DNA of 46,106 nt from Tissierellia bacterium. GTDB taxonomy: Bacteria; Bacillota; Clostridia; Tissierellales; Tissierellaceae. Under the pieces are notes generated by a model. It made no database searches. It was not told the DNA's origin and was given only the letters and a program-made list of their open reading frames with translations. The position numbers and the translations under genes were made by a program. Positions within the stretch are counted from its first letter, which is position 1. Every line of letters begins with the position of its first letter. Location of the stretch: positions 1-46,106 of the forward strand of contig JAAYFT010000150.1 of assembly GCA_012728125.1 (NCBI GenBank), written 5' to 3'. Positions 36,625 to 45,070 of this stretch are shown in pieces.

Positions 36625-36669
36625 ATACTACTTAAATTATCAAAGCCTAAATGTTAGGGGGAGTTTACT

Positions 36670-37296
36670 ATTCAATTAAACGAGAGACAGGAAAAGATAA
36701 TAGAAATAGTTAAAAAGAATCAACCCATTACATCAGAGGCTATAGCAAATAAATTAAGCCTAACTAGGGCAACCCTACGACCAGATTTAGCTATTTTAAC
36801 CATGGCTGGCATATTGGATGCAAGGCCAAAAGTTGGATACTTTTATACAGGCAAGACAAAATTCTCATTTATTTCAGAGAAGATTAGAGATATAAAAGTA
36901 TCAGAAGTTAAATCTGTACCCGTTGTTGTAGATGAATCTACCAGTATTTATGATTCCATTGTATTAATGTTTTTGGAAGATGTAGGTTCTATCTTTGTAA
37001 CAAGTGATGGATTTTTATCAGGAGTAGTATCGAGGAAAGATTTTATTAAGTCTGCCCTAGGTGGCGTAGATTTAAATAAAATGCCAATTGGGATGATAAT
37101 GACTAGAATGCCAAATGTAATCTATATAAAAGAAGATGACGATATTTTAGAAGCTGCCGTAAAACTAATAGACCACGAAATAGATAGCCTGCCTGTCGTG
37201 GAAGAGGATAATGATGGTAAGGGCTATAAGGTAATTGGCAGAGTAACGAAAACAACAATTACTAGATTGTTTGTTGAACTAGGAAAAGAAGATTAA
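36670..37296 (+). CDS. ccpN: CcpN/YqzB-type HTH + CBS-pair transcriptional repressor, apparent ATT start
   Basis: Extending the 36802 ORF upstream gives IQLNERQEKIIEIVKKNQPITSEAIANKLSLTRATLRPDLAILTMAGILDARPKVGYFY, the family HTH. SD AGGGGGAG at 36656-36663; in-frame TAG at 36655-36657; no ATG/GTG/TTG between. Confidence 0.85.
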   Translation: MQLNERQEKIIEIVKKNQPITSEAIANKLSLTRATLRPDLAILTMAGILDARPKVGYFYTGKTKFSFISEKIRDIKVSEVKSVPVVVDESTSIYDSIVLMFLEDVGSIFVTSDGFLSGVVSRKDFIKSALGGVDLNKMPIGMIMTRMPNVIYIKEDDDILEAAVKLIDHEIDSLPVVEEDNDGKGYKVIGRVTKTTITRLFVELGKED

Positions 37297-37309: not shown

Positions 37310-38137
37310 ATGAAAAACACTTTGACTGTATATGTATTATCAGATTCCATAGGCGAAACTGGTGAACTACTAGCTAAAGCAGCCTTAAGTCAATTTAATT
37401 CAGGTAAATATCATATTAAAAGATTTCCTTTTGTTAATGATAAAGAGCAGATATTAGAAGTATTCAGTGAAGCAAGAAAAGAACCAAGTATTATTATTTT
37501 CACCATAGTCATTGAAGAGCTTAAGAAATTTATAGAAGAATTAGGAAAGGAATATAATATTCCTACAGTAGACCTAATGACACCAGCATTAGATGCAATG
37601 TCTTCAGTGTTACAGTTTCAGCCAAAAAGAGAATCTGGACTAATCAGAAAACTAGACGAGAATTATTTCAGAAAAGTAGAAGCAGTAGAATTTGCAGTTA
37701 AGTACGATGATGGTAAAGACCCGAGAGGTATAGCCAAATCCAATATCGTATTAGTTGGTATTTCTAGAACATCTAAGACACCCCTAAGTATGTATTTAGC
37801 GCATAAAAACTATAAAGTAGCCAATGTACCATTAGTCCCTGAAGTACCACCACCAAAAGAATTGTTTGAAAAGGACAATCGTAGGGTAATAGGTTTAATA
37901 GCTAATCCAATTAAGTTAAATGAAATCAGGCAGGAGAGATTAAAATCCTTAGGATTAGATAATAGTGCAAATTATGCAAACATAGATAGGATAAATATGG
38001 AATTAGAATATTCTAAGGAGATTATGAAAAAAATAGGTTGTCTAGTAATAGATGTATCTTACAAGGCAATAGAGGAGACAGCAGGCATAATTATAGAGCA
38101 TTTAAAAGAAAACTTCGGAGACAAGGTCTTCGATTAG
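37310..38137 (+). CDS. ppsR: Pyruvate, phosphate dikinase regulatory protein (kinase/phosphotransferase, DUF299)
   Basis: VYVLSDSIGETGELLAKAALSQF, VLVGISRTSKTPLSMYLAHKNYKVANVPLVPE. Confidence 0.94.
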   Translation: MKNTLTVYVLSDSIGETGELLAKAALSQFNSGKYHIKRFPFVNDKEQILEVFSEARKEPSIIIFTIVIEELKKFIEELGKEYNIPTVDLMTPALDAMSSVLQFQPKRESGLIRKLDENYFRKVEAVEFAVKYDDGKDPRGIAKSNIVLVGISRTSKTPLSMYLAHKNYKVANVPLVPEVPPPKELFEKDNRRVIGLIANPIKLNEIRQERLKSLGLDNSANYANIDRINMELEYSKEIMKKIGCLVIDVSYKAIEETAGIIIEHLKENFGDKVFD

Positions 38138-44657: not shown

Positions 44658-45063
44658 GGAGTAAGTTGAATGGTCGCGTGCGTAAGCATGAGGAAAGTCC
44701 GTGCTCCATAGGGCAGGATGCTGGATAACGTCCAGTGGGGGCGACCCTAAGGCTAGTGCAACAGAGATATACCGCCAGAACTCTTACTTAGTTTATAATC
44801 TAATTTATAAACTAGGTTTGGAGTGAGATAGCTGATGAAAATTATTGAGGCTATCTGGCAAGGGTGGAAAGGTGAGGTAAGAGCTCACCAGCATTTAGGT
44901 GACTAAATGGCTATGTAAACCCCATCCGGAGCAAGACCAAAATAGAACGTAAAAAGATGGTTGCCCGCCATCGTTCAAATGGTAGGTCGCATGAACCTAT
45001 TGGTAACAATAGGTCTTAGATAGATGACCATTTAAACAGAACACGGCTTATAGACTTACTCCT
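44658..45063 (+). ncRNA. rnpB: RNase P RNA (appears A-type)
   Basis: GAGGAAAGTCCGTGCTCC, GTGCAACAGAGATATACCGCC, GGTGAGGTAAGAGCTCACCAG, 3' ACACGGCTTATAGACTTACTCC pairing with the 5' GGAGTAAGTT. Confidence 0.97.
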
Positions 45064-45070
45064 ATACATA

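Follow-up and report, generated by a model that had tools for sequence, protein, structure and literature searches.

The ccpN gene of a Tissierellia bacterium probably starts at AUU, one of the AUH codons that apparently prevail at this position across Bacillota

A ccpN gene encoded by a Tissierellia bacterium (assembly GCA_012728125.1, contig JAAYFT010000150.1, forward strand; the window, throughout, is the whole 46,106-nt stretch analyzed) has only one possible start for its full-length protein, the AUU codon at window position 36670. We consider it highly probable that ccpN starts there and that weak initiation keeps the repressor scarce in a condition-dependent manner. Ribosomes would bind the Shine–Dalgarno (SD) sequence AGGGGGAG, whose good placement would permit AUU initiation, and would initiate with fMet-tRNA at AUU 36670; the codon–anticodon mismatch at the third base would invite discrimination by IF3 and slow initiation, leaving the repressor scarce and its level tied to initiation conditions. 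The dependence on IF3, the low level of CcpN, and any metabolic role or benefit in the Tissierellia organism are predicted.

The gene occupies positions 36670 to 37296 on the forward strand (208 codons plus stop). Its frame is bounded upstream by an in-frame TAG at 36655 to 36657, contains no ATG, GTG, or TTG between that stop and an ATG at 36802 to 36804, and is open down to the TAA at 37294 to 37296. The SD lies at 36656 to 36663, and the six-base spacer TTTACT, giving an aligned spacing of 6, separates it from the ATT start codon at 36670 to 36672. The product translated from this ATT carries an HTH_11 domain at residues 6 to 57 (36685 to 36840) followed by two CBS domains, of which the second (37096 to 37272) scores best, and it matches the NCBIfam CcpN model NF053704 with 332 bits over residues 1 to 206, above the curated cut-off of 260 bits. 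The closest solved structure by sequence is 3fv6, which covers the CBS portion of YqzB (another name for CcpN). The gene order in the window is glyQ-glyS-ccpN-ppsR-dgt-like-dnaG, the dgt-like gene encoding an HD protein and ppsR (Kinase-PPPase, 37310 to 38137, forward strand) being the next gene after ccpN; ppsR lies downstream in 120 of the 133 loci with flanks. Domain content, score, and the ppsR/yqfL neighbor are all those of the CcpN family, and by homology the gene is ccpN, the catabolite repressor of gluconeogenic genes; that repression would carry over from B. subtilis, the species for which it is described (as cited in PMC13009471).

A preliminary description of this DNA had recognized a CcpN-type repressor and had placed its start at ATT 36670, with the TAG upstream and no canonical start ahead of ATG 36802; the identity and all of these coordinates were confirmed. 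It had also held that an ORF caller restricted to canonical starts truncates the gene, and indeed ATG 36802, the first canonical in-frame start, yields a 164-residue protein that lacks the HTH and scores 244 bits, below the family cut-off. That this shorter form is the true protein has next to no probability, since every orthologue conserves the HTH residues and a start at 36802 would cut the domain in half.

We gathered 233 ccpN loci from relatives, a phylum-wide draw, and named genomes, 227 of which remained after removal of duplicates; the sample is weighted toward high-scoring and window-like loci, and B. subtilis, known from the cited paper, lies outside it. The homologous codon is ATT in 73 loci, ATC in 49, ATA in 48, ATG in 35, TTG in 11, and GTG in 8, with CTT, GTC, and TGT found once each. 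Conservation of ATT, ATA, or ATC (together AUH) at this position, which the preliminary description had proposed to look for in related genomes, was therefore seen in 170 of 227 loci, and AUH is found in 69 of 89 family-level groups. An AUH, AUG, UUG, or GUG codon stands at the position in 224 of the 227 loci, and chance is excluded because the homologous codon is nearly always AUN, UUG, or GUG over so many loci. An ordinary coding Ile would be expected to give way to Val and Leu codons of every kind. At the start position, 54 of the 57 non-Ile codons are ATG, GTG, or TTG, compared with 17 to 37% of the changes at six internal Ile sites. Where the codon specifies Val, it is GTG 8 times out of 9 (background 0.23, p = 5e-5), and where it specifies Leu, it is TTG 11 times out of 12 (background 0.16, p = 2e-8), the backgrounds being codon usage in the same ccpN genes and both P values ignoring shared ancestry. 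On this comparative evidence Bacillota use the position as a start codon and have mostly retained AUH there. With no canonical start available for its full protein, and with AUH behind a spaced SD in its relatives, the window gene apparently belongs among the genes with a conserved AUH start. One genome of the sample encodes a second CcpN-like gene (L199, G236:C23:108841-109464) with ATT at the start, its first copy having TTG. No CcpN match came from G011, G017, and G023, genomes of a single genus (g10) within the family of the window, where the gene has likely been lost.

Among named relatives, Tissierellia MAGs and Tissierella pigra come closest; T. pigra has ATG at exactly the start position, where three further loci from its genus group carry ATT. 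The same 36 upstream bases and the same ATT recur in two more species of the window's genus (92–94% protein identity), which makes a sequencing error very unlikely, and an error or frameshift in the sequence at the start was rejected on this ground. Two of the observations that the preliminary description had set against its own reading were not borne out: the codon is identical in the sister species, and orthologues keep the HTH. Initiation might instead occur in another frame at ATG 36651 (36651 to 36653, forward strand), 5′ of a run of five Gs, with a slip at that run into the ccpN frame to give a protein beginning M-L-G-E-F-T-I. Loss of one G would indeed join the two frames, but no SD precedes this ATG, which is common only to the genus, whereas the AUH position with its SD is also kept beyond it; we regard slippage as very improbable.

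A different alternative concerns the relatives, many of which have an in-frame GTG three codons upstream that could be the start, making the AUH merely an internal Ile. In 43 AUH loci, the frame contains no ATG, GTG, or TTG from the upstream stop down to the AUH (a TAG stop immediately precedes the ATA of L139). A further 91 have a lone canonical codon at most five codons from the start, in or adjoining the SD; this codon is typically the GTG within GGTGA and has no SD of its own. The other 36, with a canonical codon further upstream, are less informative. Many loci with AUH lack the GTG or have it out of frame: in several Clostridium species the SD is GGCGA, so that the GTG is lost and the AUH stays, and in three loci (L013, L014, and L020) the SD falls in another frame, the GTG being out of frame and the AUH again staying. 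The GTG is absent from the window, changes at the AUH position are confined to start codons, and Ribo-Ret in S. aureus maps to the AUA (PMC13009471), all of which make initiation at the GTG very improbable. A GTG inside the SD core is, as judged from these alignments, probably an annotation trap for callers of canonical starts. Canonical calling can shorten CcpN or put its start in the SD, and the N-termini of database entries and of cloned CcpN constructs may therefore be wrong.

The AUU start of the window gene is accompanied by an SD whose position and spacing, 6 nt before the ATT, are as first described, although the strength ascribed to it did not stand. Mean SD pairing with the 16S tail is −14.9 kcal/mol in AUH loci versus −11.9 kcal/mol in ATG loci (p = 3e-8, ignoring phylogeny), and the window SD, at −10.2 kcal/mol, falls short of the AUH mean, with other genes in the window ranging from about −8 to −17 kcal/mol; it is clear and well spaced but of average strength. 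Of the 170 AUH loci, 124 have an aligned SD spacing of 6, and spacing is more even among them all than in the AUG versions. Across the loci, SD strength appears to compensate for the AUH codon, and the stronger SDs of AUH loci fit the extended SD reported for S. aureus noncanonical starts (PMC13009471).

How the start has evolved bears on whether its weakness has a function. On a tree built without the start codon, a parsimony count of the fewest changes, with direction not inferred, gave at least 15 changes between AUH and canonical codons, so the weak start is not indispensable. Third-base changes involving G number 11 at the start and 17 to 38 at nine conserved fourfold control sites, and start-codon states are thus stickier than silent sites; the tree gives modest support to selection on the start codon. 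The AUU could be the real start and yet be a weak codon with no regulatory role, a relic that is tolerated because the SD compensates and little product is needed. The third base has drifted freely, with 49 changes among T, C, and A; ATG, TTG, or GTG has been substituted in several lineages; and the seemingly compensatory SD strength would also fit such a relic. Its persistence in most family-level groups and the rarity of third-position changes involving G, relative to the silent control sites, speak against this, as does the medium-dependent reporter output of the S. aureus ccpN AUA (PMC13009471), and we judge a start without a role unlikely, if still a serious contender. The idea that adjacency to ppsR explains the AUH was abandoned because Clostridium species without an adjoining ppsR keep it. 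A crude score for other noncanonical starts in the window picked out ATA 11687 and ATA 45957, and both were rejected, their ORFs having ordinary upstream ATGs.

We also looked for control elements around the start. In 93 of the 227 loci (for example L036, L042, L069, L091, L119, L157, L174, and L202), compared with about 2 expected, a box resembling TRTGHYATAYW, which we take to be the consensus of a CcpN operator, lies no more than 90 nt upstream of the ccpN start; it is often AGTATRNCAYA, about 30 nt 5′ of the start. We did not detect such a box upstream of ccpN in the window's genus. The box suggests that ccpN represses itself in the loci that carry it, and some of the forward copies may be extended −10 promoters; CcpN self-regulation was predicted earlier for Lactobacillales (PMC3616900). 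No RNA structure hiding the start region was found, the folds being no more stable than shuffles, and no Rfam element was detected near ccpN, the only one in the window being RNase P RNA (bacterial class A, 44658 to 45066). Tentatively, and at somewhat less than even probability, we propose that the AUH start is ancient and has been selectively kept in Bacillota, where it would let initiation capacity (IF3, initiator tRNA, and one-carbon status) set the level of the gluconeogenesis repressor, that some lineages switched to AUG, UUG, or GUG, and that many Clostridia add transcriptional self-repression through the upstream CcpN-like box.

The gene for IF3, infC, starts at AUU or AUA and is autoregulated. 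Like ccpN, it has a near-cognate AUH start of the kind discriminated against by IF3, but infC forms a direct feedback loop, whereas CcpN has no action on initiation. In the window's own genome, infC (L234, G000:C172, about 5420) starts with ATT after AGGAGGTG. The closest precedent is S. aureus ccpN, whose AUA start was mapped by Ribo-Ret by Kohl et al. in 2026, with conservation in B. subtilis noted; output from the AUA relative to AUG was ~10% in poor medium and ~30% in rich medium (PMC13009471). It shares with the window the gene, the AUH codon class, and a properly spaced SD. It differs in that the AUA was mapped experimentally whereas the AUU is known from sequence, with AUU, AUC, and AUA found through Clostridia and Tissierellales, and in that the window SD does not reach the length of the extended SD of S. 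aureus (PMC13009471). In Streptomyces, sigR has a GTC start with demonstrated IF3 repression (PMC5472188); there too a noncanonical start holds a transcription regulator low, as we predict for ccpN, but codon, gene, and phylum are different. Mutants of Listeria monocytogenes rsbW starting at ATA or ATT have lower output, in the order ATG > ATA > ATT (PMC13068326); those AUH starts are laboratory-selected mutations, whereas the AUH of ccpN is a conserved state.

Because the effect was shown experimentally for S. aureus ccpN in 2026, the present finding extends a known phenomenon, with good support, and does not reveal a new one. What is new here is the AUU and AUC versions across Clostridia and Tissierellales, the phylum depth, the SD compensation, and the annotation trap. 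The switches between AUH and canonical starts, at least 15 in number, would serve as natural experiments on whether repressor levels are set by weak initiation, and AUH starts, a class normally tied to infC and a few other genes, are apparently the norm for a central carbon regulator throughout a phylum.
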